From: Perkinsus chesapeaki
Lineage: Eukaryota; Perkinsozoa; Perkinsida; Perkinsidae
Reading direction: 5' to 3'
DNA length: 33,156 nucleotides
NCBI GenBank assembly: GCA_013115145.1
Contig: JAAPAO010000288.1
Location: forward strand, 1 to 33,156
Numbering within the stretch: position 1 is the stretch's first letter; each line of letters opens with the position of its first letter. Positions 8,471-32,992 of this stretch are shown in pieces. The translations under genes were made by a program, and so were the position numbers. Below the pieces are notes generated by a model that ran no database searches, was not told the origin of the DNA, and saw nothing but the letters and a program-made list of their open reading frames with translations.

Positions 8471-11400
8471 TTATGTAGATGAGGAAGGCTCCTCTTCGGC
8501 CTTATTATCCTCGTTTGTGGGAGCAGCAGAGGATTGCTGCTGGGCAGGGGTTTGGGAAGTATCTGAGGAAAGTGTGGTATGGAAGATAGCAAAGAAGAGT
8601 CCATGGAGACTTTGTAAGTGATGAGTAATAACATAGAGTAAAGACATACCTTCAGCCGGCGAGGATGTTGTCGTGTTCGCCGCTGGTGGTGCACCTTGTG
8701 TTGTCGATGCATCTGACAATGTACATGCGTGCAGGACGTTCAATACCCCATCTTACCTTGCTCGTTTTGCTGCTGTGGCTGCTGCTGTTCTATCCGTGTA
8801 ATCTTGGCGCTAGGTGCTGAAGTATCCACGGGCTCTACGGACTCGGGCTGTTTACGTTTTTGAGCTAACGTCTGCTGCTGTTGTTGCGAGTGGCCATCAC
8901 CAGACTTCTTCAAAGCCACTAATGCTTTACTGAGTTGAACTCGATACTCCTGAAGACACTCGAGATTCTACCACATAACAGAATACCACTTCAGATGAAA
9001 AGTCAACAAGCTGGATGATGAGCGCATCGTATCCAATCACCACCATAGATTTCACATCAACTTCAAGCATGGCAGATTTGTTCCGCTAAGATATCAATCC
9101 TCACTTCTATAGGCATATCGCAATTCATTAATGCCAACGCCGGAGTAATGAGCTATACCGTTTCCTCCTCTGACATGCCAACAACCCCCCACCTGAAGTA
9201 TCTTGGCCGATCCCTGCAGCAATTCGATATTCCTCTTGTCTCTGACAACCCGACTGCCAGCCGGATGCGCCACCGCCCCGGTCGACGCTGATGCCTTTGG
9301 AGTCGAAACTGTCTGAGTTGATGACGAACTTGCTTGGGCCTACCGTGAAGCACTTAAGGAAGAGATGCGCCACGAAATTAAGATACCTTAGCTTGTTGAT
9401 CGGCGGCGGCTTTAACCTTCTTTTCCTCCTCTTTAAGTTGTTCTTCCATTTTTTTCATTTGATCACTCAAATCCTTTATCCTATTATCTCTGAGTTTCCG
9501 CATGCCCTGCTCTTGGTTCAACAGACGTATTTTCATCGACAACTGAAGCGGTATCTTCCACCCTAGCTTGCAATATATCCAACCTGTTCCTCAAGATTCT
9601 TAGTTTTCTTTTCAGCCTCTAGTTTCACAGAATTCATATTAGTCTCATTCGCCCGAACCTGAGTCGGTTGTCGCATAATCTTGATCATGACGGAAAGTAT
9701 CTTACTTGCGTGGCGAGCTCTGTCACTCGAACTTGAAGCGCCTTCGATGCGTTCTGTAAAGATTCCATCTTGCTACTCTGAAAATAGCACATCGATAAGA
9801 TATTTCTCCCGAAAAGATACCGAAGAGGTTGATTGGCTTACCCTCTCTTTAATCTGCGCTTGTGCCTGCGCCAGTTCCGCCTTCAGTTTCGCTTCATCCT
9901 CCCTTAACTTTGCAACCTCTGCTGGCTCCATATTAGCATACCTGTTTCACACCTCGTTGAGTAACACCTCACCTAGCTGGTAAGATACTTCTTTGTTAGC
10001 TCTGCGTGCAACTTTTCAAATCGTTCTGCCTTCGCAGTCATCGTCTTCAACGCCGCGTTCTGATGGCGGAATCGCTCGGTACACTAAAAATGATAATTAG
10101 CATCTCTCGCCTTCCCAAATATCGAATGATATGATTTTCATTTAACCATTTCCTCGTAGTGTACGAAAGATGAATCATGAATCTAGATAGCTCTGCAACA
10201 AGCCATATTCAAGCCATATTTCCAAGCACACCTCATTGAGCTGAGCCTTCAATTTGCTATTCTCCTCCTTGGCTACGTCAAGCTCTGATTGAGTCTTCTG
10301 CAAATTCTGCCGCTGCGTTTCTGAAAGTATCCAAGCTTCACCCTCGGCTTTCATACCCCACAAAGATACCTAGCTCCATTTTAAGCCTCTGGTACTCAGA
10401 TTCATACATTGATAATTCCTGAACCTTCGCAGTCAACATCGAATACCTGAACCGCACAAAATGCCATACAAAAAACTTCGCCCCGCTAAGGTTTACTTTT
10501 CCTCCGATTCTCTCATCCGTTCGATATGGTCCTCCTGCTGTCTGAGTCGCTCCTCCAACCGATGGAGATCTTTCTCAAGTCCAAGTGACCGTGCTTTGTG
10601 TCGAGAGCATTCCAGTAACTATCAGGAATCTTGCAATCTTATCAAATCTTGCATTTCCTCAACGTACCGCTTCTTGCTCCCGAGCTATCAATAGCTTCTT
10701 GCTCTCGTTAACTTGCTGCAGTAAAGCCTTTAATTTTCCAACTTCATTCGGAGATGACGGAATGGGACTCGGCGAGGAGGGTACATCCTCCTTCCCGGAC
10801 GATGTGAACAAAGTTTGGTATCTAAGTTGTCATCGCTATGCTCAAATATGTTGTGCGGAGGCGACTCTGAGTGGTTGAATAATGTAAAGAATAAATATAT
10901 TACAAAAAAGTAATATAATGAAAGTGCAAGCGTTCCACCTTACTTGTCATTCTCTTCACTTAAAGCCTTTATCCTCCTCTCGCTTTGTTTAACCATTTCC
11001 TCCGCCGCGCTCAGCTGTCGTTTCGTCTCGGCATGCGCGTCGTCCTTCTCCTTCAGTTTTTTATCCATTTCTTCAACCTCCTTCTTCATCTCATCAATCG
11101 CCTCATCCCTCTCCTCTCTGGCTGCCACCAACTGCTCGGCCTCCTTCCCTCTCTTAATAAACTCGGCGGTATATTCCTTCTTAGCTTCCTTCAACGCCGC
11201 GGCCGCCTCAACAGCCTTAGAGTTCGCCAGGGCTATTTCATCCTAATATCAACAAAGCTCTTTTTACCCACCAAGTGCAAACGGTGAGTCCCCATCTCAA
11301 ACTCGCATTTGCATTGGTCTAGTCCAAGAAAATTTACGAAAAAATAGTTCAGCGAGCAATTTTTCACAAAATTCTACTGAATTCGCTTAAAATTTTTCCC

Positions 11401-14400
11401 GAGAAAAGTTTTGCGAAAATATTAAAAAACTTCATGGATCATGTTAGGATGGGTTCGCTCCCTCCTATTTCTCCAGTCCTCGAATTTCGAACATTTCTCA
11501 AGATCAATTAAATAACCTCATCTTTACTTCACTACTACTCGCACGCAGCGCTTAGCAGCCGTTGCCAGGATTCGAACCCGAGACTGATGATTAAGCCGCT
11601 CACCTTAGCTTGCTTCAAGTCTTCCTCCAACTCGTGTATCTTTTCACGAAGCGCATCAGCATCACTTCGAGCCAGGCCTCCCTGAATAAAAAAACTTCGC
11701 TCCGCTAAGACTTCATTCGCGTTTCACCTTCGATTCGAATTCTGTTATCTTCTTTTCGGCGTTCAGCAAAGATTCCTTCGCAGCTGCGAGCTCGGCGTTC
11801 TTAGCGTTCAAGTCCGCGGTCAATTTGGTAACTAACGTGATCAAACAAAAGAGCGGTATGCACGCATGCACACACTGTTCTCCACTTACTTTTCTCATCA
11901 CTTGACTTTATCTGTTCCTCTAAACTCTTAACAGCAGTTTGCAACACCTAACAAGCCAACAATGTAACAGGCACGGCAACAGCAATAAGCCCAACTGTCC
12001 AAATCGATCAAAACGCTCGAACATATACAAACAGTCCCATATATACTAGAAAACTCATTCCCTGAATTTTCCGGGTTTCCGGGTTTCGTATGCCCTTCCC
12101 CTGTCGCGGAGAAGCGGATAGATACGTCCAAGAATCACTCTGAGTGGATCACCGATGATATTTTACTTGGTTGTTGCTTTTCTGTGACTCAACTTCTGCT
12201 CTAGCAACACTGAGCATTCTCTCCATTTGAGGGTTGCTGCTGCTACTAGTCGGTTGGGCTGAAGCAGCTGACACTTCAGGTGAACCCAGAGATGCGCGGC
12301 TCTGAAGAAGGGCAGATCCTTAGCGGAGCGAAGCAGTTTTTGTTTACCTTGTATAACTTGATTTTATCGATTAATGACTGCTTTTCAACAGACCAAGTTC
12401 GTCGCTCATCAGCAAACTTGGATGCTTCCTGAGAATCGTGCGCATGCGTGCATACCGACTTTTCTTCAAATCTTCACCTCCTCCAGCCGTTTGATTGATT
12501 CCTTTGATGAGCTCAACGTAGAACTCTGTTCCTCGTAAGCCGATCGATAGAACACCAAACTGAAGATACATAAAGATACCCGCCTCCGCACTGTGAAGAT
12601 TTTCTCACTTGTTCTTCAACTCTTCCATTTCGTGCAGAACCTTCTCCGTCTGTTCCCTAGCCATTTCCCGAGCGCTCTGAGTCTCCTCTGCAACTCCTGA
12701 TAATATACGCGCAAGTTCGAATCCCACATGCGACATAATCGTCTTACTTTGCTGAGTTGAAACCAGGAGACTGGCGATTTTGGCCTTCTCAGCTAGTACG
12801 GCTTGGAGTTGCTCGCTAAACTAAAAATAAAATGGCAAGATGCGCGACCTAATATGTATCTGCCTCGGTTCAACCTGGGATACTTACAACTTCAACCCTA
12901 GCCTGCGCACTGTGCATCTTTTCCAATGCTTCAGATTTTTCCCGTAATGCAATCGATCTCTCATGCACAACCTGAAAACATCTTTTTTCTGTATGAAATG
13001 CACGCTTCAACCTCCCTTACAGTTTTAACAGTTCCCTCCAAAGTAGCGTTCTGCGCCGCCAAACCAGCGCTCCTCTTCTCGGTCGCCCTTGCATCATCCT
13101 CTACTCTCTTCAACGACGCGCGAAGCTCGCCCATAGCCTCGGAGATGACAGACTGACAGACATCACGATTTGAGGAAAAATCGGTATGAAAATCCTTAGC
13201 GTTACCTTCCTGTCTTTCTCCAACTGTAGCATTGTCTTCGCTCGAATGCTTTCCGTGCTCAGTTTCCTGTTCTCTTCCCTTAAAGTGTTGCATTCTTGAC
13301 GCATCATGTCAAGCTCTGAAACGATACGATCGTGCGCATGCGTGCAGAAACGATACCAGAGGACTCAGAGAGACGCGAGGCGAAGTCGAAATAAACGAAT
13401 AGCGACGAAACTGTTCCTCGGTCGTGTGGACTAGGACCCGTTTGAAGATCACACGTTATATCTTATAACGTATGATCTTCAAACGAGTACCACTATAACT
13501 TATAATCCACTCTATCAATGCACGCTATCTGTTGAACTTTGAAGAACGACCCGAAATATTATTAAATAAACAGAGCTGGGGCGCGCAAGAATCGTAAAGA
13601 GTTTTGTGGAATTTCCTCCGTTTTCTCATTGCGGCGGGTGTAGTACTTACGTTTCTGTGATTCACTCTTAACAGTCTCCAACTTATCTTGTAACAGATTA
13701 ATCTTACTCTCGGAAGATGGCGACGATCGAGATGGAGACCCGCCACCAGCACCAGCATCACCGCTACCTAACACGATATCTTAAGGTCAAGCATGCAAGA
13801 TACGTGGAAGGTCAAATTGGTTACCATGTGCTTTTGCTGTATCTTGTAATGACTTTCTTAGTCTTTCTATTTCTTCAGCCATTTCTCTCTTATCTTTATC
13901 AGCTCGAGACAGCAACCCTTCGTATGTAGTCTTATCATTCTCACGACTCTTCGACCTGACAATATCATTAACGTCACGCGCCACAGAATTCACATGTTCC
14001 ACGATTCTCCGAGCTCGACATGATGTTGAACTAAGTGCAGTGGTACGCACCCTCCATCACCTTCACCGACCACGAAAACGCCTGCGAGCGACTAACCCAA
14101 GTAGCTATAAGCCATAACTCGGCACATGGTATATAGAACATTAGCAGCTTGTAACAAAGACGACAACGCTGCCGCCGCTCGGCTAATTGCAGAGAAAAAA
14201 GAGACATTCCGAGGGACATTCTCTCGACCAAGGGAATAATTTTTCCACAGATCCTTCTCGTTTTCGTTAATGATTCGTTAAATTACTATTAAAGATGGCA
14301 GTATTTCCTTGCTTCTGAGACTATTCCTAAATCCTGGCAAATAGACCAGCACCACTACCAGCGCCTCGGATCCCCTTACAATTCTTCATATGCTTCCTCT

Positions 14401-17400
14401 ATCTTATCCCAGTCGGCTCTAAGCTGTGCCAACTCCTTTTGAGCCTCCGTCTCACACTCGTTCCTCAATCGTGACACTGATGCCTTCAATGTTGCATTCT
14501 GTGACACCTAATACCAGCTATCGATGGCAAACTGTGATTAAAAAGTCTTACCAATTCCGCAACAGACATGAATGTCGGGGCTGTCTGGGTTGAAGGAGCG
14601 TTGCCATCGAGAGACACGATTGAACTACCGTCCACATCCATAGGAGACGAGGCTGCGGACGATCTGAGAATACGCGATGAGATCGGGCAGATTGATATTA
14701 ATATAATGAATTATTATCAATGATGAAGTAGAGTATAAGATCTAAACTTAATCAGACATAAAATGATATATAAAATCCGATACTACCAGGCTGAAGACAT
14801 ATCAAGGTCCCTTACCTTCGTCTCTTCATTCCTCCTCCTCCTCCTCTCTTAAGGAGTTCCATCTCATGTAACAATACAGATGTCTGATTCACTTGCTCTT
14901 GTAGTTGTAACCGTAAAGTCGATACAGCACTCTCCAATTGTCGACGGGAATGGCTTTCGCTATTCAACCTAATTATATTATCATAACCACCTCTATTATT
15001 TGCCGAATTATCAATATATAACTCATCAAAACGTAATGTAACCAATTCTCGAAAGAACCCTATTTCTCAACGAAAATCCTAGAACTCAAAGCCTCTGAAA
15101 AGTGTACAGAGTAAAAGCTACAAAGGCCTACGCACAAAAGAGCAAGCCTGAATTACCCTGTCGATAGACCACCAGGGCATGCTTAGGGACAAGTTATTAA
15201 CCCTACACATGAGTAGAAGTCAGCCACTTCTGCGGAAGTACCGGTGGCGACCGGATGCGATTTTGGGCTTAGATGTGGCTTGTTGTGATTTTATTTTGCC
15301 GTTACAATGCTTGGAGGGATGTACAACGAGATGTGTAATGCAGTAGACCTTTTCCTTCATATTCATGCCACGATAAGGTCGGCGGCACCTCCGATGCACT
15401 CTTCATTCATGAGCGACAGCGTTCCTCGACATCACCGATACCAGGTCTCTCCACAAAGCTTTGCGGTTATATATATATTCACTCAACATGATACATATAG
15501 GGTGTTAGCACCACGGACAGTAGTGCCCCGGTAACTCTGGGTAGTTGTGCCACGCTTGAGAAGCTTCCATTGGAAATTTATCAGCTCAAGTCCAGTGTTC
15601 GATCTGTGGGCATCGAGTTGAGTGAAACTCTGCTCTATCGAGTGTATTCCCTCCAGATGAATGATTCATCCACCCTCCAAACAGCTGCTATCGTTTGATC
15701 TCGCAAGAGTCTCGCAATATTCATATCAGATTCATTGAATCTCTATTGGATCGATCACCGACCTTAAGCTGTTGAAGGTCAAGGCCCGCGCGTACTCGTT
15801 GCTGGGACTACTTGCCACGACTACTCTCCGCCGTCTGGGTATGCGTGACGTACATTTTGGCAACATCGAGACATTCCGAAGACATTCTAACAAATGGCAA
15901 TTTGTTAAATTTCATTTCTGCAGTTCAAAATCGCACAAGAATATAAAAGAAGGGCAACAGGAATGCCTTTCACTGTGAAAAGCTTCATTCAATTACTGGG
16001 GATGTTTTTTACTGGAAATCCCCACATCGACTCTTACTTGTCTTTAGTCTCCCTCAACTTAGCATTAGCGATCTCGATCTTCTCATCTGACATAATATCT
16101 TATACTGCATTCGGCATTTACGAGTATCTTACTAGCGTCACCAAGCCGCACCACGAGTTCGTCGTTTTGCCGCTGGATGGCCTCGATTTCCGGCGCCTTC
16201 GCTTCGACGTGGGCATTCACTTCATCCAAAAGATCTTCCAGATGGCTAAAGATATCCCAGATCGAAGCATGCAAGATATGTCCTAGGTTAGCTTACGCAT
16301 TAGCCTTTCTGAGAGAGATCGCATCATCTCTTGCTGTCATCAACGCATCAACCAAAGCCGAAAGCGGGAATCCACCGGTGGGCGCTGAGGGAAAAACAAC
16401 ACCTCGCACAATCACGCCTTCTGTCTGATAATATGGTCCCTCATTTGTTTTGCATATATGCCATGGAACACGAACTGGAACACCGAATAAGGGCGATAAG
16501 AGTATTAAGAGGAATATCATTCCAACGATAAAAGCTTCGGAAGGATTATACCATATCTATAGAGTGGAGACTTTCCAGTGGAGATTAGAATTTTTAACGC
16601 TTGCGTTCATCATAACGACGCATGAAAACTATCTAAACCTCCGACGCCTCCGTAAAATAGATCACCTTCTCTTCCAAGTACTTCAGACGCTACTTCTGTG
16701 ATTGACTGTAAACGACCAGTGCCATTAGTGGGACTACCACTGGCAATCTGAAACACGAACTAACCTATTAAGTATCTTGCACGCTTCTACCTTCTCTCTA
16801 AGATACTTCTCCTTCTCTTCTCTCAGTTCATCCCTCTCCTTCAGCAAACTTGCTTTCTCCTTTTCCGACGACTCAGCTTTCCCGCGCGCCAGAGAAAGCG
16901 AACATAACGTCTAAAGATACAAAATAGGTCAACTTTCGACCCTCTCATCAAATCTTACATTATTCAATTCCTGCTTCGTCTCGGCCAACTCCCCACTTTG
17001 TGTTTTAAGCTGATCCTCCAAATTAGAAACCATCTGCTGTTTCAAACTTATGATTCCCTCCAAACTGGACTTCTCTGCATCCGCGTTTTCCCTCGTCGAT
17101 GCCAAATCTTTTACGGTATCCTCTAGCCTATAATCCACCTTCCATGAAAGTCACGCGCCCCGAAATTAAATCACTTTCTCTCTGTTCCATCATGTAATTT
17201 ACTCAATCGTCGGCATTCGGCTTCTGCATTTTCCAGTCGACTCTTCATCCCCGATAGTTGCGTGTTATAATCCAACCTAAAATATATAAATTCATTTTCG
17301 CTTCTCAATCAACCTCCAAAGTATCTTTCCTGGGCGTCCGCAGATACTGTACAGAGAAGATCGTCATCCCGACTGTACCATTAAATGTACAGTGTGAAAT

Positions 17401-18155
17401 TGCGCAACTTTTCAGACATCCACTTCGTTAATTTATCGCACCGACAATGAGCACTGAGCGTCAAAAGTAATGGGAAGCATGACTAAGTTATGAGATACAT
17501 ACTATATTATAGTGAGATCTGCAGTATAAAGGTGGTAAAGATAATGATGAAGATAATAAATTTAATGAAGGTAATAATGACGATAAATCTACGTACTATT
17601 CTCGCATTATCTCTACTTCCTAATTATTCGGCGGCTACCGGCGTCGGTATTAGTTATTTTGACGCCGGTGGAAGCATCCGAATAGAATAGACGAAAATTT
17701 AGGAATGGGTCGGCATTGATAAATCACACATGAACCTAAGATACTCCTCCAATATCACCTTGATTTCTGCATCTCTGTAACAGTCCTCTCCTTCTCCGTC
17801 GAAGCATGCTCTACCAGCTCCCACAGCTCACCAACTTTATCTCCAAGCCGTTTAGTTTCAGTTTGCAATGATTGGTTGTCGAACTCGAGTGGCCGTAGTC
17901 GACCTGCCATGACTAATCCTTCTAATCGACATTATTATTATTATTATTATTACTGTTAGCGTCAGAAAGCTGACACTGCAAAGACAGTTTCTCCGACTGT
18001 AATTCACCGAGTTGACGGGTGAGGACCATGAGCTCGCGAGTTAACCGAGATACCCTAACAACAAGAACAAGGACAACAAAGATTCACAAGGAAATATGAT
18101 AACGAATCGCTCTTAGGAAAAATACGTACCGAGGAAGACCATCTGAGAGCGACAT
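8471..18155 (-). CDS. Very long coiled-coil protein, TPR/MLP-like (tentative)
   Basis: This is a minus-strand locus of roughly thirty short exons. I place the start at ATG 18153-18155 (exon 18130-18155, then 17954-18054 and 17759-17903) and the stop at 8471-8473 (last exons 8757-8967, 8650-8712 and 8471-8562). Almost every exon is heptad-rich and charged (for example LREENRKLSTES, AELAAAKESLLNAEKK, KRQLSAAEEMVKQSERR). A Ser-rich break SSAASSPMDVDGSS lies near 14.6 kb. The tail is Gln-rich with a basic QKRKQPE patch and ends acidic. A long coiled coil followed by a disordered acidic tail is typical of nuclear-pore basket TPR/MLP proteins, but myosin-tail, golgin or kinetochore proteins look similar, so the name is tentative. 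I could not follow exons with confidence through 15.1-16.0 kb, so it could be two genes. Most introns are 40-60 nt; longer ones are at 17.3-17.75, 13316-13650 and 11243-11603. Confidence 0.6.
8720..8734 (+). repeat. TGCACGCATG intron module
   Basis: This sits in the 44-nt intron 8713-8756. In the gene sense it reads CTGCACGCATGTACA and lies just before the acceptor. Similar sequence is found in the introns at 11.86, 12.44 and 13.33 kb. Confidence 0.6.
10327..10369 (-). repeat. GTATC...GATAC element making up most of an intron
   Basis: The whole 49-nt intron 10321-10369 begins with GTATCTTTG and ends with GGATACTTTCAG. Its ends are therefore inverted copies of each other, with GGGTGAAGCTT between. 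It belongs to the intron element family described in the findings. Confidence 0.6.
10476..10490 (+). repeat. CTTCGCTCCGC-type intron module
   Basis: CTTCGCCCCGCTAAG lies in the 50-nt intron 10447-10496. In the gene sense it is followed by T-rich sequence and ATGGCATTTTG, a layout also seen in PAN3 intron 2. Confidence 0.7.
11558..11603 (-). repeat. tRNA-like fragment at the 5' end of a coiled-coil gene intron
   Basis: The 361-nt intron 11243-11603 starts, in the gene sense, with GTGAGCGGCTTAATC and then CTCGGGTTCGAATCCTGG, a tRNA T-arm and B box. Unlike the others this one is sense-oriented. I see no full cloverleaf, so it is a fragment or relic. Confidence 0.6.
11695..11709 (+). repeat. CTTCGCTCCGCTAAG intron module
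   Basis: Exact CTTCGCTCCGCTAAG in the 46-nt intron 11682-11727, next to a run of A (T in the gene sense). It can fold as a small hairpin, CTTAGC/GCGAAG. Confidence 0.8.
11859..11873 (+). repeat. TGCACGCATG intron module
   Basis: TGCACGCATGCACAC lies in the intron at about 11832-11887 of the coiled-coil gene, in the opposite orientation to the other intron copies. Confidence 0.6.
12319..12333 (+). repeat. CTTAGCGGAGCGAAG intron module, inverted copy
   Basis: Exact reverse complement of the module at 11695-11709. It sits in the 46-nt intron 12302-12347 in the opposite orientation relative to the gene. Confidence 0.8.
12438..12452 (+). repeat. TGCACGCATGCGCAC intron module
   Basis: Lies in the 49-nt intron 12429-12477. 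In the gene sense it reads ATGCACGCATGCGCACGAT just before TCTCAG. The intron at 13316 has nearly the same 3' end. Confidence 0.75.
12697..12747 (+). repeat. tRNA T-arm-like sequence filling an intron
   Basis: This 51-nt intron of the coiled-coil gene reads, on the plus strand, CAAGTTCGAATCCCACATG, close to the B box in TRAPPC3 intron 6. It is antisense to the gene. Confidence 0.65.
12856..12883 (-). repeat. 28-nt GTATC...GATAC intron element
   Basis: In the gene sense the element runs from GTATCCCAGGTTGAACC to GATAC. It has the same length as the element in PAN3 intron 1 (32251-32278), and I count 20 of 28 positions identical, although the genes are unrelated. Confidence 0.75.
12972..13020 (-). 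repeat. Intron carrying GGTTGAAGCGTGCA
   Basis: This 49-nt intron contains GGTTGAAGCGTGCA, identical to the core of the PAN3 intron 1 element, but it has ATTTCATAC instead of the GATAC end. Confidence 0.6.
13316..13650 (-). other. 335-nt intron with hairpin and intron module
   Basis: This is one of the longest introns of the coiled-coil gene. Its 3' end carries CTGCACGCATGCGCACGATC before the acceptor, shared with the intron at 12429-12477. Its middle holds the 22-bp inverted repeat listed separately. The rest shows no open frame of note. Confidence 0.7.
13439..13485 (-). repeat. Near-perfect 22-bp hairpin inside an intron
   Basis: The arms 13439-13460 and 13464-13485 (CGTTTGAAGATCA..ACGTTATA) are separated by three bases. 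They differ at one position, which is a C.A mismatch on the plus strand but a G.U pair in RNA from the minus strand, the sense strand of the host gene. This favours a folded RNA made with the pre-mRNA, or a very short palindromic insertion. Confidence 0.85.
13775..13803 (+). repeat. GTATC/GATAC intron element, antisense copy
   Basis: Within the 57-nt intron 13768-13824. It reads GATATCTTAAGGTCAAGC on the plus strand and ends in GCAAGATAC. It matches 16251-16279 and, more loosely, 32251-32278. Confidence 0.65.
16251..16279 (+). repeat. GTATC/GATAC intron element, antisense copy
   Basis: Within the 51-nt intron 16246-16296. It reads GATATCCCAGATCGAAGC, then ATGCAAGATAT. GATCGAAGC also fits the tRNA B-box consensus, hinting at a link with the tRNA-like introns. 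Confidence 0.65.
16772..16806 (-). repeat. 35-nt GTATC...GATAC element at the 5' end of an intron
   Basis: The 59-nt intron 16748-16806 starts with GTATCTTAG. After GGTAGAAGCGTGCA it reaches AAGATACTT, giving nine-base inverted ends (AAGTATCTT/AAGATACTT) when the two preceding exon bases are included. The splice donor is itself the end of the element. Confidence 0.7.
17321..17347 (+). repeat. 27-nt GTATC...GATAC intron element
   Basis: Lies in the long intron at about 17282-17758. It runs GTATCTTTCCTGGG to CCGCAGATAC and shares ends and size with the family, but its core differs. Confidence 0.5.
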
Positions 18156-18548
18156 AGACGAAATCTCTCGTCGGAAAGAGATAAAGAGCAAATGAGAACG
18201 ACTACGTGCATTGGAAGATTATATGTCGCCTGGTTCCTAGTGGATATAACAACTCCACCGTGGCAGTACTTCCGGAAATACTTCTCAAATATCTTTGCCG
18301 GTTCTAAATTAAGCGGACTATTCATTCGTTGGTATAGTTTTAGCATTCGAAAAGTGACGTGGGAATATCTGCTATCCACATTCGCCTCAGCTCTACCATC
18401 TAGTCTTCATGTATAGATCACAAAATATACATTCGTTATTGCTCAGACACAAAAAGCGACCAATCGACCAAAAATTCATTTTCTCTCCAGCAGTCTTGCT
18501 GGCATAGGTTTCGGAAGTAAAAGACACCATCTATCATTCCTCCCCATA

Positions 18549-22590: not shown

Positions 22591-23482
22591 AATGTTGACC
22601 TCGTCGAAAGAATGTGAGTCGGACCCGCCGAGCGCAAAAACTTGCGGACGGTACGGACTAAACAAACAAATTTTGTCCTTGCTTTGTTCACATTTTGTCC
22701 AGGAAAAGATTGAAAGCAGCTGATGAACAAGAAAACTGAGAAAAGTGCTGATATGCACATTTCGTATTGCTTCGATGAATATTGAGATGCTCTTGTGTAA
22801 ATAAAAATTTGCTGGAATGTATATCCCTCGTCAATTTTGTGGTATATAAAGCGGCAAATCGATTCGAACAACAAAGCAATAAAGGCAGAAAATATAGTAT
22901 TAAGCAAAGTAACAAATGTAGCAAGAAAGTGCGGTTGCTAAATTCGATTACAACGCTAATACTAAGTAAGTCACTAGTAGTAACGGTGCCCGAATTCGAT
23001 TCCGGTAGAGTTTGGTTGAACCTTGTATGCCCTTTCAGTTTTATTTTGCAAGCATGCTCCTCGTTTGCATTCCCCCGTTAAGTTATCGATTAGACGAGGA
23101 AACAGTGAGAAACTAAACGAAAGTAGACGCCGGGTTTTTTGACTTTTTTTGACAATTAACTTGTCTTGCGTCGAGCTTGTCACAAGTTGGAACACCGTTT
23201 ACTAAACAGTTGAAGCCGGAGAAGTTGGAGTCGCTTTAAATTGAGTCAGTGAACACAACAGCAGCAACTGGCCCAACTTGAAGGAAAAATGCGCAGGAGT
23301 ATATACTAATTGACTAGCTAATATAAACTCGTGCTGAACAGTGAGTCGTGGCTTCTTAGCCCTCCACTTGAGCTACTCAGTACTCTTTTTGCTAAGCGGT
23401 TATTTTGTTAAGTATCCCAGGAACAAAGGGGGACATAATCATTATGATGTAAAAGCAGTAAAAATATAGAATATCCGAAACT

Positions 23483-24622
23483 TTATTTGACTTGTGCAAT
23501 ACCGACAGTTGCGCTGTCAAAGTGGAACTCCATGTAATTACCAATAAGCATAGAATGGGACAATCTCCAACTTCCAAGAAAAGCGTTTTTCACCAGCACT
23601 AGACAAAAATCCATAGGGACATCTTCGCTAACGTAGCCTTCAAAAGGGATACTGAGCGGAACGTCCTTATTTTGGCCGACCAGCATGAAGTGAAGTGTTG
23701 GCATATATTCGCGATATTGGCAGTCAACTTGATACGCCTCTCTAAGTGTATTATATAAAATAAACACTTCCTTCCCAGCGGCCTTGGAAGCTTCGTGCTC
23801 AATACTATGGAGAAGCTCATCAAGCTTATCCATTGGGGCTTCTATGTAATCGGAACCAGTATCCAATACCACAGCACCATTAACATCAACTTTGGGTTCA
23901 ACCCCGATCTGCACAGCCTTCAGCATCACCCTCCACGAAGTTTTCTCCGAAGGAGTTCTACGAAGCACCGGGACAAATTGCAGTGGTTCCTTATAGAGAG
24001 ACGCGTCACCACCTCCGAGCAATATCTCCCCGACTTGTTCGAGACCGGGGTGTGCTGGTCTCAGGTATAAAGCAAAGACATTCTCTTTCAGTGGCGTGGA
24101 ACGGCTGGTAGTAAGCTGCTTCATGATAGAAGGATACCATTCCTCTACTTCCGGGGCCAGGCCGAGTACCACGGGAGGGTCAAATAGAGCAGCTGGGGTG
24201 AATCCATCCATCAGTCCAAATATTATATCGTCAAACTTGGCGCCACCAAACTTGAACTCAGCCGAACGCCTGAAAATCGTGACTGCTCTGTCATCTCCGA
24301 AACTGATAGTGATGGGATGATCCGTAGACGGGCAAGGCTCAGGGCAATCGTAGCACTTGAAGAGTCTTTGGCACGCATAGGGACCAGCAACCTGTTCGAA
24401 AGTTTTTCTTTGTAAATTGATATAATATGGGGTATCAGTATCTATAACACTCCTCTCAAGCTGACCGCCCAGCCATGTGGTGGTATAAAGATAGGCCCTT
24501 GGGGGGGACGTCTTGGCAACGCTCAGGTCGTAAATACGTGCTGCTCCTTGCCTCAAGACTTGACTGTCACCCACTGCAATCGAGATCCCAGTGATGAAAG
24601 GGAGAAGTACGTTAATCCACAT
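23483..24622 (-). CDS. Pepsin-like aspartic protease homologue, copy A
   Basis: Single exon, 379 residues, starting ATG at 24622. The first 20 residues (MWINVLLPFITGISIAVG) form a signal peptide, so the protein should enter the secretory path. The C-terminal lobe is clearly of the A1 pepsin type: LLGGGDASLY and PLQFVPV (about 201-219), W230, then the second catalytic motif VLDTGSDYI with Asp 254, and a C-terminal MLIGNYMEF...VGIAQ segment. The first motif is altered: VIDTDT (Asp 61) where active enzymes have DTG. The flap Tyr is also not seen. A Cys cluster (about 84-97, CYDCPEPC) is unusual. It may be a weak or inactive protease that binds peptides. Its inverted paralogue is at 25934-27073. 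Confidence 0.85.
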   Translation of the reverse strand: MWINVLLPFITGISIAVGDSQVLRQGAARIYDLSVAKTSPPRAYLYTTTWLGGQLERSVIDTDTPYYINLQRKTFEQVAGPYACQRLFKCYDCPEPCPSTDHPITISFGDDRAVTIFRRSAEFKFGGAKFDDIIFGLMDGFTPAALFDPPVVLGLAPEVEEWYPSIMKQLTTSRSTPLKENVFALYLRPAHPGLEQVGEILLGGGDASLYKEPLQFVPVLRRTPSEKTSWRVMLKAVQIGVEPKVDVNGAVVLDTGSDYIEAPMDKLDELLHSIEHEASKAAGKEVFILYNTLREAYQVDCQYREYMPTLHFMLVGQNKDVPLSIPFEGYVSEDVPMDFCLVLVKNAFLGSWRLSHSMLIGNYMEFHFDSATVGIAQVK

Positions 24623-24913
24623 AAGGGGAAGTAAGAGCTAACTAATGAGCGATACAATTACCCTAATCGTACCCCTAATTAAATTAGGGGCTGCCCTACA
24701 AAGCATTCTGCTCCAACTACCGATTTTGCGAATACCGTTTGCGACGCCAACCTGATGTATAGTGGAGTAAACTTGACGAGCTCTGTGTGCTGCATACAGT
24801 GTGCATGAACACAGGAAATTTATGGGTGAAAATTCTCACTCTTCCACTTATCCCGACGACGCGCATACCATTCGATTTGTCTATTAGTTCGACTCCAATT
24901 ACCGGAATGATTT

Positions 24914-24947
24914 CCTGTCACGATGATATTTCTGTCGCCGTGACAGG
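24914..24947. promoter_or_regulatory. Inverted repeat upstream of pepsin-like copy A
   Basis: CCTGTCAC (24914-24921) and GTGACAGG (24940-24947) form an 8-bp inverted repeat about 300 bp upstream of the copy A start codon. The stem is kept in copy B at 25650-25679. It may be an operator-like site or part of a transcript fold; this is inference. Confidence 0.4.
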
Positions 24948-25000
24948 AAGCGATGCACGGAAATCGAAGAAACTCATTTTGCTAATGACACTCATTACGC

Positions 25001-25594
25001 AGGGAACGGCCATGGTCAATACACCCCATACTCGGAGTTAATGCTGCCTGGAGAGTACATCCTACGGTAGGATTCCTACTTGAAATATCAACTCCTCGAC
25101 CGGTCTCGGAGCTACGCGGAATTGAGGCTCAATTAGCAAATTGAGCAAAGCTAACGGAATTGAGCAAAGAAGCCCGGGTCAGCCATGGGATATGGATGAC
25201 TCATAACGGAATCCATTATGTCCATGAGGTCGATTCATTAAATGGATCAACGAGGAGTCTACGTGCTGTCACAGCTGGAGGGATGCGACAGAATAATATT
25301 CCGAGAATATGGAAACAAGAAGAACAAGATAATTTGTCGAAGGCCCGAAATTCGACGGGAAACCAGAAAGAGTAACCCGTGTACCGTGCACGGGTGCCAC
25401 AGCCGTACTGCGGCTACTACCGGTAGCCGTATGTTCACTGTATGGACTGTGATAGTGACCTCAAGTGATTCCTGGTATTCTGAGTTGCATTGCTAGAATA
25501 ACAATTGACTATGCTATTATAGCAAAGCCAATTTGACGAGTAATGACACAAGCCTGTGATCCGTTGCTGATGAATAAGACCAAGTGACATACTG
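25001..25594. other. Spacer of the inverted duplication
   Basis: About 0.6 kb lies between the two divergent pepsin-like promoters. It contains copy 2 of the dispersed repeat (25376-25590) and short internal repeats of AATTGAGCAAAG near 25130-25170. No gene is visible. Confidence 0.6.
25376..25590 (+). repeat. Dispersed repeat, copy 2
   Basis: Starts with CCCGTGTACCGTGCACGGG, the same hairpin as copy 1 with one stem change, and continues with GATAGTGAC and GACGAGTAA motifs in the same order as 21468-21650. Confidence 0.6.
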
Positions 25595-25649
25595 TATCGC
25601 AGTACGATTAGCAAAAAAGAGCTTCTCCGATTTCGTGCATCGCTTTTTG

Positions 25650-25679
25650 TCACGGCGACAGGAATGTCATCGTGACAGC
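25650..25679. promoter_or_regulatory. Inverted repeat upstream of pepsin-like copy B
   Basis: TGTCACG and CGTGACA are separated by 16 bases, about 260 bp upstream of the copy B start. The equivalent site in copy A has a slightly longer stem. Confidence 0.4.
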
Positions 25680-25933
25680 AAATCAATCACGTAATCGGAC
25701 AAACCAAATGGTATGCGTATCGTCTGGAATCCGGACTCGAGCTGAGTGGGAGAGTGAGAGTTCTTTCTTCCGCAAGTAGTCTGTGTTCATGCACACAGCG
25801 CTCGACAAGATACTTGACTCAAGTATACTCCACTATACACATTCGCAAAAGAGGCAGTGGAGACGCTTCAAGCGTCACGCTTGTAGGGCAGTCTCTAACT
25901 GTATCGCTCATTAGTTACCTCTTACTCCCCCTT

Positions 25934-27073
25934 ATGTGGATTAACGTACTTTTCCCTTTCATCACTGGGATCTCGGTTGCAGTGGGTGACCGTAAAGTCT
26001 TGAGGCAAGGAGCAGTGCGCATTTACGACCTGAGCGTTGCCAAGACGTCCCCCCCAAGGGTCTATCTTTATACCACCACATGGCTGGGCGGTCAGCGCCA
26101 GATGAATACTATAGATACTTGTTCTCCATATTATATCAATTTAAAAAGAACAACTTTCGAACAGATTGCTGGCTTCTGTGCTTGTCAAGGACTCTTCAAG
26201 TGCTACGATTGCCCTGAGCCTTGCCAGTCCATTGATCATCCCATCTCCGCCAATTTCCCAGATCGCAGGTCAGTCTCGATATTCAGACGTTCGGCTGAGT
26301 TGAAGTTTGGTGGCGCCAAGTTCCGCGATATAATATTCGGACTGATTTATGGATTCGGAGAGGGTGCCATAGTTGACCCTCCCGTGGTACTCGGCCTGGC
26401 TCCGACGAATGGCGAAGACGAATGGTATCCTTCTATCATGAAGCAGCTTACTACCAGCCCTTCTACTCCAGTAAAAGAGAATGTCTTTGCTTTATACCTT
26501 AGACCGGCACGCTCAGCTCTTAAACAAGTCGCGGAGTTATTGCTCGGAGGTGGTGACGCGTCTCTCTACAAGGAGCCGCTGCAATTTGTCCCGGTGCTTC
26601 GTAGAACCCGAGAGGAGAAAGCTTCGTGGAGTGTGATGCTGAAGGCTGTACAGATCGGGGTTGAATCCAAAATTGATGTTAATGGTGCTGTGGTATTGGA
26701 TACTGGTTCCGATTACATAAGCGTCTCACGATATAAGATTTTTAAGCTTTTCCGCAGTATTGAGCACGAAGCTTCCAAGGCCGCTGGGAAGGAAGTGTCG
26801 ATCTCATATAATGCACTTAGAAAGGCGTATCAAGTTGACTGCCAATATCGCGAGCATATGCCAACACTTCACTTCATGCTGGCCGGTCAAAGTAAGGACG
26901 TTCCGCTCAGTATCTCTTTTGAGAGCTACGTTAGCGAAGATGTCCCTAGAGAATTTTGTTCTGTTCTGGTGAGAAACATTTACTTTGGAAGTTGGAGATT
27001 GTCCCATTCTATGCTTGTTGGTAATTATATGGAGTTCCGCAACGCAACTGTCGGTATTGCGAAAGTCAAATAA
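25934..27073 (+). CDS. Pepsin-like aspartic protease homologue, copy B
   Basis: Single exon, 379 residues, the same length as copy A. The frame is open further upstream (to 25754), but the ATG at 25934 matches the start of copy A and begins the signal peptide (MWINVLFPFITGISVAVG). The second catalytic motif VLDTGSDYI (Asp 254) and the C-terminal MLVGNYMEF...VGIAK segment are intact. The first motif reads TIDTCS (Asp 61), so the Gly of DTG is replaced by Cys here and by Asp in copy A: the same position is lost in two different ways. The shared Cys cluster (CYDCPEPC) is kept. It is the only well-supported gene on the plus strand, explained by the inverted duplication. Confidence 0.85.
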   Translation: MWINVLFPFITGISVAVGDRKVLRQGAVRIYDLSVAKTSPPRVYLYTTTWLGGQRQMNTIDTCSPYYINLKRTTFEQIAGFCACQGLFKCYDCPEPCQSIDHPISANFPDRRSVSIFRRSAELKFGGAKFRDIIFGLIYGFGEGAIVDPPVVLGLAPTNGEDEWYPSIMKQLTTSPSTPVKENVFALYLRPARSALKQVAELLLGGGDASLYKEPLQFVPVLRRTREEKASWSVMLKAVQIGVESKIDVNGAVVLDTGSDYISVSRYKIFKLFRSIEHEASKAAGKEVSISYNALRKAYQVDCQYREHMPTLHFMLAGQSKDVPLSISFESYVSEDVPREFCSVLVRNIYFGSWRLSHSMLVGNYMEFRNATVGIAKVK

Positions 27074-27483
27074 AGTTTCGGATATTCTATATTTTTACTC
27101 TTTTTACACCATGATGATTATGTCCCCCTTTGTTCCTGGGACACTTAACAAAATAACAGCTCAGCAAAAAGAGTATTGAGTAGCTCAAGTGGAGGGCTAA
27201 GAAGCCACGACTCACTGTTCAGCACGAGTTTATATTAGCTAGTCAATTAGTATATACTCCTGCGCATTTTTCCTTCAAGTCGGGCCAGTTGCTGCTGTTG
27301 TGTTCACTGACTCAATTTAAAGCGACTCCAACTTCTCCAGCTTTAAGTTAAAGTTAAAGCCTTTAACTGTTCAGTAAACGGTGTTTGCCGTTCCAGGTTG
27401 TGACAAGTCGAAGATTCGAAGCTTCTACTTTCGTTTAGTTTCTCGAATCGAGAATCTCTATGTTTCCTGGTCTAATCGATCAC

Positions 27484-28529
27484 TTAGGGTCCACACGCTG
27501 TTCGAAGTTCGTAACTATTTAGGGCCCTGGACCCCAGTCTGTAACGAAGTCCTGACCCTCCTTGCAGCATTTCTCGCTCGCCCCGGCGTACGCGAAAAAT
27601 CCGCGGGCATAGTACCAATACCACAAAGGGGTTCTTCGCCTTGAAGCGGAGCGGTGGTGAGCCTCCCATCATAGGAGTCTTTGGGATTAACACTAAGAAC
27701 GTGGGATCTATCAGGGATACATCAACTCGCTCATTTTTGTTTCATCCATTTCATGGATGTTCACGATGCCTGTAATGCAGGTTTCATCTTGGATGATTTT
27801 GCCATTGGAAGAACAGTTCCACCCACTTGTTGTTCATAGTATGGCTTCGTATTTTCCTTCTCGTACATTATGATCCATTCACTTCTAGTTGTTCATTAAA
27901 CACACAATTGCTAAGCGTCAACGATGGTCTAGCCTATTAGTGTAATACAAGCGTCAACGATGGTCTAGCCTATTAGTGTAATGCAAGCGTCAACGATGGT
28001 CTAGCCTATTAGTGTAATACAAGTTGTATTTCTGATGTCGCCAATACAGTGGGCCCCACTGAGTGGGCTGCCCTGTAATACAGAGTATGTTGTGCAGTGC
28101 TCTGCGTTGTGATAAAGGTTGTTATACGGCCCAACCAAAGTTCTGTTAATGTACGTAACGTACAGTACGTTATTGACTGGCCATAATTGTCGTATTTAGA
28201 TTTCAGTTGTTCTGACCAACTCAACATCAACATTTCTTATTTTGTTATACACTTTCAATGGTAGTCGTTTTGCTATTTTACTATTGAAGAGACTATGTAG
28301 TAGTTGTTGTTGTTGTTGATCCAAGAAGACAACTGCAGATATATGGTACAAGGAATGTTGATAATCATTACTAACTCGCATGTATTATCACCACATTATC
28401 GAGCGTAATGACAGTAACACTCTCAATAGTATGAATGCAAACAATAAAAAAGCGGCTGCTGCTCAAAGCTACCTGAGTAACCTCTGTGGCGTACTCGATC
28501 GTGGCTTCGGACCTAGAACGAATGCGATA
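27484..28529. other. Non-coding stretch downstream of PAN3
   Basis: Open frames up to 87 codons exist but show no domain. The notable content is the 36-bp tandem repeat at 27913-28020. The right end should contain the PAN3 3' UTR. Confidence 0.5.
27913..28020. repeat. Tandem repeat, three 36-bp units
   Basis: Units start at 27913, 27949 and 27985 with AAGCGTCAACGATGGTCTAG. The three are identical but for one base near the end of unit 2. There is no spacer structure, so it is a plain minisatellite. Confidence 0.95.
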
Positions 28530-31500
28530 TCACAGCCTAGCTCTTCTCCCACCTGTACTGCCCTCCTCGCCGCCACCTTGTCCGGTGTCATTCTGTGTTA
28601 TGGATGCTGCTGCCGTAGACGACCTCATCGTATGCTGGTGGTGATGTGAATGGCCATGCTGTCCGTGTCGATGGCCTCCTCCGGCCGCCGAGTGAGAACC
28701 TCCTCTAGTAGTGGATTGCACTGCGTCAGTGGATTCTAGGACTAGATCTCGGAATGAGCTGTCTACGGATCGCTTAATATCCCCAAAGGTTGCAAGTACA
28801 CAATCGGCGCCATTCTGATAACAACGAACAACAACAAAGTCATCACCACAATGGTTTCATCCAGGTCACCTTGCTCCCAAGCGTAATCGTCTCATGTAGA
28901 GTACCAACATCTGCTTTCGCCAGACCATCTAAGACGTGCTGGAGGTTGTTGGCAACCTACATAGGGTCCTATATATCAACCATTTAATAAGTGCACCATT
29001 TCTGTATTATCTAGGCCGAGAGTCTATACCACTATCAACGACTTTCAGCAGTTCTGTGATATTCCCGGCAAACGCTACTCTCAAAAATTGCTAATTATTC
29101 CTTCCTTCATCTTAAGCTCTGATACGATAGAGCGCGTGCCTTTATTTGTATCGTACATGGTAGCCTGTCAGTGGTACTAGACGATACGAGATATATATTC
29201 AAAATGGACCCTATATAATACACAGAGGTGTATCGGTCATTTATAGACTGTAAAAGGCATTGAACAATATTGTCCGTATGCCCACCATGCTAGCTGGTGG
29301 TGATGTACCCGGTACAACTTGACCGAAGAGATACTCCATAAACATGTTGACCTAAAATAACAGTGTATGATGAGACGGTCACGTGACGACAGGAATCTAC
29401 AAGCTGTCGTTCATCCATCTGCTGTGCATTCATGTTCTTAGCCCACGAGGGTCGTTCCCCTTTCTGTAAGCCAGGCCTGACGAGAGCTCACGAATAGAGT
29501 GGAGCGTCATCATTAGCAGCAGCAGATCCTTACATCCCTCGTCTCGTATCATTAGCAGGTCCAGTGCCTCCACGACCACTGCTGGAACGATCAGCACCAG
29601 ATTCAGGAGGAGAACCAGTGGCAGTATTGGAGTTGGGCTGCGAGTGTGGCAAAGGCTTCGCGTTGCCTTTACCAGCAGCAGCAGCAGAGTTCATTGGGTA
29701 GCAGTACACAATCGTGCCTAGAAAAAGAGCCTTATTCGAATGGTGAATAATAGTGGGAGCTGACTCTACATAGTTTAATGAGCAGCTTAAGCATCCTAGA
29801 GTTGTCAACCTCTAACTTGAACTCATTCAACAACATATCAGTCGTGAATAGGGAACTCTCAAACTGATAAAGAATGAAACGTAACCACCATCATCAACAA
29901 CAACAACCTGTCCTTTCCTCAACAATATGTGTTGTGGGATGTCCCCTCGAACATACGAACAACATACTATTTTGGGTTATCGAGCTAATGACCCTTATGT
30001 GAGGAGCTTCACTCATCGCTCGATTGACTCATGATGCATAATGTCGTATAACAATAATAAGCATCATCGACTCGTCTAGCCTAACCTAATTTTGCTCCGC
30101 TGAGATCTAAAAGTGCTCCCTATGCTGAGATATATTAAAACATTTCGCCAGCAGACCAATATGAAGCACAAGACCCACTCTGCTGTCTTACATCTGATAT
30201 ACTCCCACGACACTCGGATATTAAGACTATTCTATATCCCCGCCAAAAAGTAATACTTAACATCAGTTATACACCCGAAATTCAACCGAGACTAACCACA
30301 AGAAATTCAACGCAACGGCAGATGAGCCACCGCTTCCGGATTGCCGCTCGGCGACTTTCCTCTCTACAGGGATTCATTGTCTCTCAATCGAACTAGGTGG
30401 TAGACGCCTTCTCAGATAACAATGCTGCTGCTCTTACCTTGTTAACAATATGATTACAATATCGGAAGGCCAACTGCTCTGACGTGGGATAGCTGGATAT
30501 ATCCTTCACTTGAGTTAGCAGTATTTGCGCAAGTGATTTAATGTCATCTGAATAGCTCGGATTCGCCATAAAGCTAGCAGTGTTGGAGACATCCATCTCC
30601 TCTGGTATCTTCAAAGCATTGTCACTGCGCCCTAAAATTCCATCAGTCCCTCAGCCAACACCCCCTCAGCCGCCTACCAGTTGCCATAGATAGTATTAGC
30701 CTTCCCAGACAGATAAGATCTTTCTGTTGCTGATGTGCAATCGATGACTGTTGCTGTTGTTGAGTCGTCGTAGTCGTCGTCGATGGTCCCCCAGTCCCCC
30801 TCGGCGGGCCTGCCCAGGTCGTCGGTGGGGCACTTTGACCCGCTCTAGAAGGCGGCTGATAAAAATGACGATAACAAATTTGAAGGGAGCAAAGATACTT
30901 ACCGATTCTTGAGCAAGTGCATCTAAGAGACCAACACAATTGAGGTACACTCGAGGAGGGTAGAGAAAGGCCGTATCGGTTACTAGAATCTACATAAGAG
31001 CGATGGGCAAGGAGGAGGAGGCGAAGAAGTTGATGGCCTCACCTTAGTTGGATGGATGACTTTTGCTGAGAGTCCATGGCTGTGGATGTACTTCAAACAC
31101 ATTATCAGCTGACTCAATACATCCTAACAAATTCGAGTCATTCTTGGTGTAACGGTAAAATCCTCGACTCTGAACCCCAAGGCCCCTGGCTCGATCCCGC
31201 CTACCCATATAATATGTTCCGGTATTCCTCCAGTGCCATTTTGTTTAAGCGTCGGAGAGTCTATAAACACCGACTGAAGTGTCGCCACCGACGGTATATA
31301 ATCATATACATACACCTAACAGAAACTCAACCTCCACCTTAACCGCCGCCGATCAGCCCAACTACCAGTGAGCCTCCATCTTGACTAGGATTCTCCGCCT
31401 CGATAAAATCCCTCGTCCCAAATGCTTGCCGTAACGGTACAATACATGGGTGATGCTAAAACACATCCTGCCATCAACAAGAACAGCGCTACTAAAATGC

Positions 31501-32992
31501 AGTACTATCGTGCTCCAAGTTCTAACCGCCTCAGTGACAAGATCAAAGTTATTTAAACTGAAGCCATCAACTCGACATAGACAGTAGACGTATGAATCCT
31601 AAACGGAGACGGCCATCACCTTCCAATAAATAATAATAACTCCTACCGCAACCGACAAAGCTTTGTAAAACGATGTCTTGTACTGATAACCAAAATACGA
31701 CCCATTCCCGCTCTTAGCACTGCTGCCATCCATCCCACTTGTGACCGCGTCACGAGTACTGCTTCCTCCTTCCGGGAGCGATAATAATGTATGATACTTA
31801 TTCTGGACAAACTCGGGAACTATACATCACGTGGTGACACGCTACAATTCCCCGTCACCACTACCAGCAGGCATGTTTGAATCCACAGGATAGTCTCTGT
31901 TAGAAAGCACAGTGTTAACTCTATGCATCTGCAGTTCTTTCCGAATAGTCTAACAAAAATGGCAAACATGAATCACTTCGCTCCGCCCGACACTACTGCC
32001 TACTGGATCGGCACTCAATGACGTGGCATGAGGTGGCGGCCTTTCCAGCATGTATGGTTGCAGTGGTGCTGGCTTATCAACTGGGGGAGTCGGTGAGCGA
32101 GGCATCCTCGAGTGACCTCCTCTAGAATGCCCTCTATTCACTGCTGATGATGGCAATACAAATGGAGGGGCACCAGAAGAGTTGGATGGGGGAGGAGCAC
32201 GATTCGGGGAGCTAAAATGAAACATCGTGTACTATTATTCAACCTCATGTGTATCATGCACGCTTCAACCCAAGATACTAGTACCACTTCATCCCCAAAA
32301 CCCAGCGTGTCCGGCAACAAAACTTCTCTCCTCAATGCCTATCTTCCGAGATACGTAAATTTCCGATACATGGTGCGCCCAGAAAAGACGGGACATGTTA
32401 TATCCAAATCAACTACAACGTTCCATCTTCTAAGATGAGCTATTAACTCTCTATGATACCTCCACTACTCGTCATACTTGAGACAATTTCTTAAATATCG
32501 ACCATCGCGCAATAAATACAATTCCCTTTCCACAACTTGCCAATTTATATGTGATGATAGGTGCTCCATGATGAAGACCTGCATATTTCCTTTGAATATG
32601 CCGCGGTCTCAGGGAGGCCTTCAGAAGAGCTATACACTAAACCCCCTTTATACCATGTTTATATATACGGTCTGGTGGCAAACAGGGGCCAGCATTAACG
32701 TTAAGAATACGTAATAAGCACTATACGAATAACATCTATAAATCTCTACCATGACTTATAGATTACCATAATGCTGCTCCAAAGTACCCCTTTATCACCT
32801 TCCCATAACAGTTGCTGTAGCCTGCTGCTGCTGTTTCTGCTGTGCTGCCTTCTGTGGTGATTCTATGCCATCCCCTGCCCCTGTTGGTGGTGTAGCATCC
32901 CCTGTCACCACTCCACCATGTGCACTACCACCACTGCCACCTCCAATAGCAACAGATCCGCTACCAGCTGGATTGGACCTATTAGACTTCAT
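28530..32992 (-). CDS. PAN3: PAN3, regulatory subunit of the PAN2-PAN3 deadenylase
   Basis: Seventeen exons: 32799-32992, 32004-32211, 31865-31949, 31647-31819, 31506-31598, 31366-31455, 31205-31315, 31043-31123, 30903-30989, 30678-30855, 30438-30631, 29770-29863, 29534-29717, 29401-29476, 29316-29351, 28870-28956 and 28530-28814. They total 2256 nt (751 residues) with all phases matching. PAN3 binds poly(A)-binding protein and activates PAN2 to trim poly(A) tails. Visible parts are a low-complexity N-terminus; the pseudokinase (about 165-500) with YHTLLSLPE, YCLCRVDGF, HHPCIVPLRQAF, IHSHGLSAKVIHPTK (no HRD) and KDLICLGRLIL; a coiled-coil helix with LEVDNSRMLKLLIKL (about 515-528); and the C-terminal knob with ERPSW, MEYLFGQV and TFGDIKRSVDSSFRDL. 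Odd points are no N-terminal CCCH zinc finger, a Ser/Gly/Pro-rich insert after the coiled coil, and a Gly/His-rich tail. The first splice (587-nt intron) is the least sure. Confidence 0.93.
30091..30105 (+). repeat. Degenerate CTTCGCTCCGC module in PAN3 intron 11
   Basis: TTTGCTCCGCTGAGA lies in the 574-nt intron 29864-30437. It differs from the exact modules at its left end. Confidence 0.4.
31124..31204 (+). repeat. tRNA-Gln-like sequence that makes up PAN3 intron 7
   Basis: This 81-nt intron, read on the plus strand (antisense to PAN3), is tRNA-Gln-like over most of its length. It has A box TGGTGTAACGG, an anticodon-loop-like GACTCTGAACC (CTG in place) and B box GGCTCGATCCC. Stem pairing is poor, so it is a decayed or derived copy. 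The intron ends coincide with the ends of the tRNA-like stretch to within a few bases. Confidence 0.75.
31976..31986 (+). repeat. CTTCGCTCCGC module in PAN3 intron 2
   Basis: Exact CTTCGCTCCGC in the 54-nt intron 31950-32003. In the gene sense it is followed by TTTGCCATTTTTG, like TATGGCATTTTG in the coiled-coil intron 10447-10496. Confidence 0.75.
32251..32278 (-). repeat. 28-nt GTATC...GATAC element in PAN3 intron 1
   Basis: In the gene sense it runs GTATCTTGGGTTGAAGCG to GATAC, within the 587-nt intron 32212-32798. It has the same size and layout as 12856-12883 in the coiled-coil gene. Confidence 0.75.

Follow-up and report, generated by a model that had tools for sequence, protein, structure and literature searches.

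We analysed a 33,156-nt stretch of the Perkinsus chesapeaki genome (contig JAAPAO010000288.1 of assembly GCA_013115145.1, positions 1 to 33,156 of the forward strand; contig C210 in our numbering), hereafter the window. A first-pass annotation had described seven elements of about 28 nt in it, with GTATC- and GATAC-type inverted ends, in introns of unrelated genes. Comparison of copies and of homologous proteins identifies a repeat family whose copies fill much or most of a predicted intron in each of eight conserved genes, in both orientations. It is probably an introner-like short interspersed repeat whose copies make up introns.

Copies of the repeat in the window

The inverted ends are present at all seven elements. 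Six of the seven lie at 8.5-18.15 kb, in a minus-strand stretch that to the eye is a single coiled-coil gene, although the gene finder splits it into separate calls. The host genes are therefore not unrelated within the window, although they are unrelated genome-wide, where eight conserved genes carry the repeat. Copies were scored with a 44-nt matrix (listing threshold in the window, score ≥8), an element profile for introns, and a junction test combining splice-site scores with open frames across the spliced junction. Five elements, with hairpins at 13776, 32251, 16252, 12856 and 16772, were listed by the matrix; those at 17321 and 10327 were not.

The copy at 12840..12883 (minus strand) comprises the hairpin 12856-12883 and a tail, has five-base ends and a matrix score of 27.3, and lies sense to the gene within a predicted 67-nt intron (12821-12887) whose local profile score is 38.9, the copy itself also being in the profile training set. 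At 13776..13819 (plus), the hairpin 13776-13803 with its tail scores 50.1 and is antisense to the gene; outside the called genes, it occupies a candidate 57-nt intron, 13768-13824 (GTAACC..GTTAG), with a best-fitting junction of 14.4. Another antisense member, 16252..16295 (plus, matrix 27.4), has ends jointly changed to ATATC/GATAT and sits in a predicted 51-nt intron (16246-16296) whose donor, GTAAGC, is supplied by the reversed tail. A 35-nt hairpin variant at 16772 forms, with its tail, the copy 16756..16806 (minus, matrix 17.4), for which the intron is either 16748-16790, as called by the gene finder, or 16748-16806. The family member at 32235..32278 (minus, hairpin 32251, matrix 50.0) has no surrounding gene call, and its intron status is weak (best junction fit 8.9).

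Of the two unlisted elements, the one at 17305..17347 (minus) has inverted ends and a tail, GGAGGTTGATTG, around a core that is not the family's; it may lie in a candidate 71-nt intron, 17277-17347 (junction score 8.2). The predicted intron 10321..10369 (minus, GTATCTT...GGATAC) is a doubtful member: its local profile score of 15.4 is close to the upper tail of shuffled introns, 0.7-1.1% of which reach 16, and the element at 10327 is 43 nt long. The predicted 49-nt intron 12972..13020 (minus), described earlier as a core lacking its right end, does contain the core (profile score 19.7), its ends being degenerate. An exact copy of the tail unit without the left arm, AAGATACAAAATAGGTCAACTT at 16914..16935 (plus, profile 31.4), had been missed; it is antisense in a predicted 48-nt intron, 16911-16958.

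The hairpin is part of a repeat dispersed across the genome

We counted patterns in the whole 35.4 Mb assembly (884 contigs), using the reversed pattern as control. Exact inverted ends separated by 5-25 nt occurred at 146 places versus 3 in the control, and the 28-nt hairpin GTATCTT-N14-AAGATAC (≤1 mismatch) gave 346 matches versus 4. These counts are far above chance. Narrower or mis-sized patterns gave few matches (5, 6 and 8, each versus 0).

Contrary to the earlier description, GATAC is not the end of the element. A conserved tail, RAAATAGGTYAANTTG, continues to the right of AAGATAC, and conservation stops beyond it (45 copies compared). AAGATAC plus tail, AAGATACNNNNTAGGTYRANTT, with ≤2 mismatches, matched 857 places versus 14 in the control. 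The hairpin is thus just part of the repeat, its inverted repeat consisting of one arm and the first seven bases of a commoner unit. This unit is about 24 nt long, AAAGATACRAAATAGGTYRACTTG; many copies have a 21-nt arm, GTATCTTRRGGTTGARCGTGC, in front of it, which yields the 28-nt hairpin plus tail.

To sample the tail unit, we fetched 40 stretches from the exact matches heading the list of 857. Four were tandem arrays. Among the 36 others, the left-arm core (≥8/14 bases) was present in 16, nine of which also had the GTATCTT heptamer (≥5/7), and absent in 20, a split that understates the hairpin form because five known hairpin copies were excluded from the fetch. The arrays include 12.8 units of 26 bp in L090 and 13.4 units of 25 bp in L109. 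Most listed tail-unit copies stand alone; 20 listed copies, in five clusters, lie ≤200 bp from another.

Mean column identity among copies is 75%, with many core positions varying even though copies were chosen by their ends. The sampled copies hold about 44 bits over 45 columns, a value inflated by selection for ends and tail. The 44-nt matrix found 22 copies at ≥10 in 233 kb versus 0 in the reversed sequence; it was trained partly on copies in its own search set, and that set was biased, since 5 of 20 10-kb stretches had been fetched for holding copies and 11 others came from two copy-bearing contigs. Covariation of the stem arms was uninformative in copies picked by their ends (one of seven pairs changed on both sides, in 2/38 sequences), and RNA folding of five element introns was not decisive (z from -2.2 to +0.4). 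As far as sequence can tell, this is a repeat family dispersed genome-wide in both orientations.

Copies fill much of short predicted introns in conserved genes

A self-trained gene finder applied to 233 kb predicted 368 introns, which have a median length of 48 nt (45-50 nt being commonest), GTAAG as donor and YAG as acceptor. It undercalls genes: the La gene (L024) was missed in both versions, and the intron of a kinase gene (L029) was found by the first version and later lost.

Eight loci, chosen for having a recognisable homologue, were compared with solved proteins, a check that was not applicable to most other copies. The eight genes are conserved and unrelated to one another, and in each the predicted spliced product aligns ungapped across the junction left by removal of the element. 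The set includes the introns of CCT-beta (L035, 64 nt, with an unrelated 15-residue model error elsewhere), a protein kinase (L029, on contig C511; 54 nt, ungapped with CTR1, the second-ranked match), a Seh1-like protein (L044, 50 nt, the 44-nt copy being cut short by the acceptor), La (L024, 53 nt, with a Pfam La match) and a DDX17-like protein (L047, 48 nt). The copy is antisense in a Rab gene (L092, aligned to Rab-10; 67 nt) and in the gene for U1-C (L103, 58 nt), and a 22-nt tail unit without the left arm lies in the 40-nt intron of an outer-arm dynein intermediate chain (L114). The copy fills much or most of the intron in all eight genes, whose introns span 40-67 nt against the genome median of 48. 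All eight are GT-AG introns, the search having allowed no other kind. The genome holds many sequence-related introns in non-homologous genes, and intron and repeat match each other: every checked intron contains a 44-nt copy except those of L044 (shortened) and L114 (22-nt unit). A weaker case is L053, where a Pfam methyltransferase match (8.6e-5) spans the junction. Pfam found no domain in 8/10 proteins of one set and 4/10 of another, in which three more matches were weak.

Of the 377 introns in the window plus L005-L019, 13 scored ≥18 on the element profile (7/68 in the window, two of them belonging to the profile training set, and 6/309 elsewhere). Among controls this score was reached by 0/1131 full shuffles, by 0.2% of the 1131 shuffles with fixed ends and by 0/377 reversed introns. 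The heptamer GTATCTT had a density of 12.9 per 10 kb within introns, against 2.5 in coding sequence and 3.2 between genes; much of the intron excess is due to the window's own introns, without which the density is 6.9. By our estimates, between one half and three quarters of the sampled hairpin copies lie outside introns.

A general hairpin rule for introns was rejected, as inverted repeats were no commoner in introns than in shuffles. A predicted 74-nt intron at L005 1438-1511 has a perfect 23-bp inverted repeat with a 5-nt loop. On contig C8 (L004, L093), one gene model has two 45-nt predicted introns, one with a sense hairpin copy and the other with an antisense tail unit.

Share of copies that fit as introns

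Coding potential in the flanks of 43 copies gave an intronic share of 0.22-0.27. Because this estimate relied on the undercalling gene finder, the junction test was added for 49 hairpin copies. A junction score ≥11 was reached by 0.43 of these copies and by 0.77 of predicted introns, compared with 0.10 of random places and 0.03 of non-gene places. The same segments reached it in 0.21 of cases when implanted at random places and in 0.13 when implanted in non-gene places. Over cut-offs 8-12, the intronic share came to 0.2-0.4 relative to random implants and 0.26-0.47 relative to non-gene implants. We put the proportion of hairpin copies that fit as introns at between a quarter and a half, depending on cut-off and control. 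Among the 22 hairpin fits at ≥10.3, 15 were sense and seven antisense. For the 36 tail-unit copies, junction scores ≥10 were found in 0.55 of those without the left arm and 0.62 of those with it (implanted 0.41, random 0.17, predicted introns 0.88). Some copies are intergenic, such as three within 310 bp in L020.

Intron positions in related kinases

In the DFG-APE region of related kinases, introns occupy three sites that fall within 8 nt, and one kinase has none there. The element intron of the C511 kinase lies in this region. In the C631 kinase (48% identical over 31 residues) a tRNA-like intron, of a type described below, lies 4 nt upstream of the C511 site; in the C611 kinase (60% over 30 residues) an unrelated intron lies 4 nt downstream, and the C485 kinase (52% identical) has no intron there. 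These differing positions in paralogues argue for separate gains of the putative introns.

Other short repeats in introns and further features of the window

Introns resembling the 3' half of a tRNA (GTAAG...GGTTCGA...TTTAG) gave 35 genome-wide matches, 34 of them distinct, versus 2 in the control; examples are L057 1-361, L023 6495 and 6807, and L024 328 and 585. An A stands at the discriminator position in 29/34 and a T-run follows immediately in 32/34. Their mean best identity to 20 tRNA genes is 18.4/27, versus 14.8/27 with shuffled flanks. T-stem pairing equals that of swapped partners, so we claim no intact T-arms. The antisense pattern gave 14 matches versus 2, four at the same places as the sense pattern.

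A second short family, ATCTTCACAGTGCG-N6-GGTATCTT, occurs at 17 places genome-wide versus 0 in the control. It lies in the predicted intron 12560..12608 (minus) of the window, at L035 1769-1815 and in L061-L069. In L067 its copy equals a 38-nt intron in the frame LTDEE|VDEMIREA, which we take to be calmodulin-like. In L068 the family appears, by eye, in tandem.

Further predicted introns have GCGGAGCGAAGC or a close variant in common, in either orientation (window 10447, 11682 and 12302; L023 2835 and 6672; L011 6696), and others carry, by eye, a GCATGCGTGCA-type motif (window 12429, 11832 and 8713; L020 8825; L031 1501). The window also contains a divergent pair of pepsin-like aspartyl protease genes, 23483-24637 (minus) and 25933-27073 (plus), 84% identical in DNA over 1.8 kb and 77% in protein, and two duplications, 1027-1403/5233-5608 (96% identical) and 2207-2730/6147-6678 (76%).

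Origin of the element introns

Our confidence in the introner-like nature of the repeat comes from the introns checked against homologues, which carry it. We infer that copying into an exon would have created the intron. A copy would land in a coding exon in either orientation, bringing most signals of a minimal intron. The donor of a sense copy would coincide with the left end or closely precede it (GTATCTT, GTAGTATC or GTAAGTATC), with a YAG in or after the tail; that of an antisense copy would lie at or near the reversed tail (e.g. GTAAGTTRACC), with a YAG after the reversed left end. Because copies bring most donor and acceptor signals, such a copy would be spliced out as part of a short intron. 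Candidate insertion routes are a non-autonomous element, or repeat or minisatellite DNA captured at breaks.

Several observations weigh against this origin. No pair with and without the intron at the same site was seen, the intronless C485 kinase being only 52% identical. Target-site duplications, which the first-pass annotation had proposed to look for, were not above background in 44 copies tested with fixed boundaries, where only 2-bp coincidences were seen. Two of the eight alignments are less clean: EGFR, the top match of L029, carries two additional residues next to the junction, CTR1 being only second, and L047 has just seven weakly conserved residues upstream of its junction and no Pfam domain. 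The splice-like letters of the element alone lift the junction score, as the implants show, and the excess over implants shrinks at cut-off 12 (0.22 versus 0.11). Half to three quarters of the sampled hairpin copies do not fit as introns. Copies in L031, L034 and L054 lie inside open frames, with best intron scores of just 7.6-8.1. The sole homologue of L031 is a gene model of the same genome that reads into the element and is evidence neither way; for L034 the homologue search was empty and no paralogue was found.

On a broader and more tentative proposal, which we hold to be possible, several unrelated tiny repeats have repeatedly become introns here: the GTATCTT/tail unit, the ATCTTCACAGTGCG repeat, and tRNA-3'-half-like sequences up to and including an RNA polymerase III-type terminator (TTTT followed by AG). 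Any short sequence that is abundant and has a T-run or a donor-like end could then do so, in either orientation, and no dedicated transposon would be needed.

Copies might instead have entered or replaced older introns, for example through gene conversion or through repair that drew on satellite DNA, and been tolerated there. The intergenic copies and tandem arrays agree with this, as does the mean column identity of 75%, in which no recent burst is visible. However, a 48-nt intron that gained a simple 44-nt insertion would be about 92 nt long, and the eight checked introns measure 40-67 nt. Since they are about as short as ordinary introns, the element has not simply landed in an older one; these lengths fit an intron that largely equals the element. 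The differing intron positions among kinase paralogues also speak against older introns, and we consider this explanation unlikely.

Selection for a functional motif, be it a branch point, a polypyrimidine tract with acceptor or a palindromic protein-binding site, is a poorer account still, and improbable. In reverse the unit has the sequence AAGTTGACCTATTTTGTATCTT(T)AG, which could plausibly act as branch point and acceptor, and the stem heptamers are well kept, in copies selected by these very heptamers. Against such a motif stand the occurrence of both orientations among the checked introns, the 25-26 bp tandem arrays, the roughly 44 bits over 45 columns (inflated by selection), the 364/377 introns that score <18 on the element profile, and the lack of general enrichment of inverted repeats in introns.

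Least credible is a true miniature inverted-repeat transposable element (MITE), derived by deletion from a DNA transposon and mobilised by a transposase reading the GTATCTT ends: the inverted ends do have a strict 28-nt spacing and are dispersed in both orientations, but the repeat extends at least 16 nt past the right "end", many copies lack the left arm, and we do not class it as a MITE because the inverted repeat lies inside the unit, not at its termini, and no target-site duplication was seen at the fixed boundaries. Of the earlier proposal that an introner or MITE-like family has seeded introns, what is supported is that copies form introns in unrelated genes; a MITE is not supported, and neither is confinement of the copies to introns. 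We keep the label "introner-like" for what the repeat appears to work like.

The origin of new spliceosomal introns is an open question, and introners are a main documented route. A unit of 24-45 nt giving most of an intron on either strand would be near the minimum for an intron-making sequence. The findings in Perkinsus, a parasite of oysters and clams, suggest that short repeats can seed new introns, and the housekeeping genes affected include that of the splicing factor U1-C. Together with the tRNA-half-like introns, this genome would allow several sources of new introns to be compared, and other Perkinsus species would offer a direct test of intron gain.

Comparison with known systems

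MITEs are short and dispersed, with inverted repeats at both ends, a target-site duplication and a related autonomous transposon. The Perkinsus repeat resembles them in being short and dispersed and in its inverted heptamers; it differs in that the inverted repeats are not terminal, no duplication accompanies them and the unit is 24-45 nt. With minisatellites it shares a unit found in 25-26 bp tandem arrays, whereas most listed tail-unit copies stand alone.

In the open-access literature searched (PMC, Creative Commons licences), "Perkinsus" and "introner" occurred together only in a study of Amoebophrya (Farhat et al. 2021, PMC7789003) and not in a survey of introners (Gozashti et al. 2022, PMC9860276); among the titles and abstract openings listed by these searches, there was no mention of intron repeats in P. 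chesapeaki or of tRNA-derived introns. As excerpts of the former describe them, the introner elements of Amoebophrya, a myzozoan relative, have inverted repeats of 8-20 nt with no family-specific sequence, mostly non-canonical splice sites and direct repeats of 3-5 nt at their borders; the same layout is also found in a part of the canonical introns, 1% and 15% in the two strains (PMC7789003). The Perkinsus repeat has in common with them intronic inverted repeats and a potential hairpin. It differs from them in its one conserved heptamer pair, with no direct repeat found; its checked introns are GT-AG, in a search confined to that kind.

According to the sections of Gozashti et al. consulted (PMC9860276), introner families have median lengths of 30-654 nt and occur both with and without terminal inverted repeats and target-site duplication. 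The Perkinsus repeat, in which neither was seen, differs from the introners described there in its two orientations, its many copies outside introns and its tandem arrays. What it shares with them is that unrelated genes within a genome carry introns of related sequence, formed by non-autonomous repeats.

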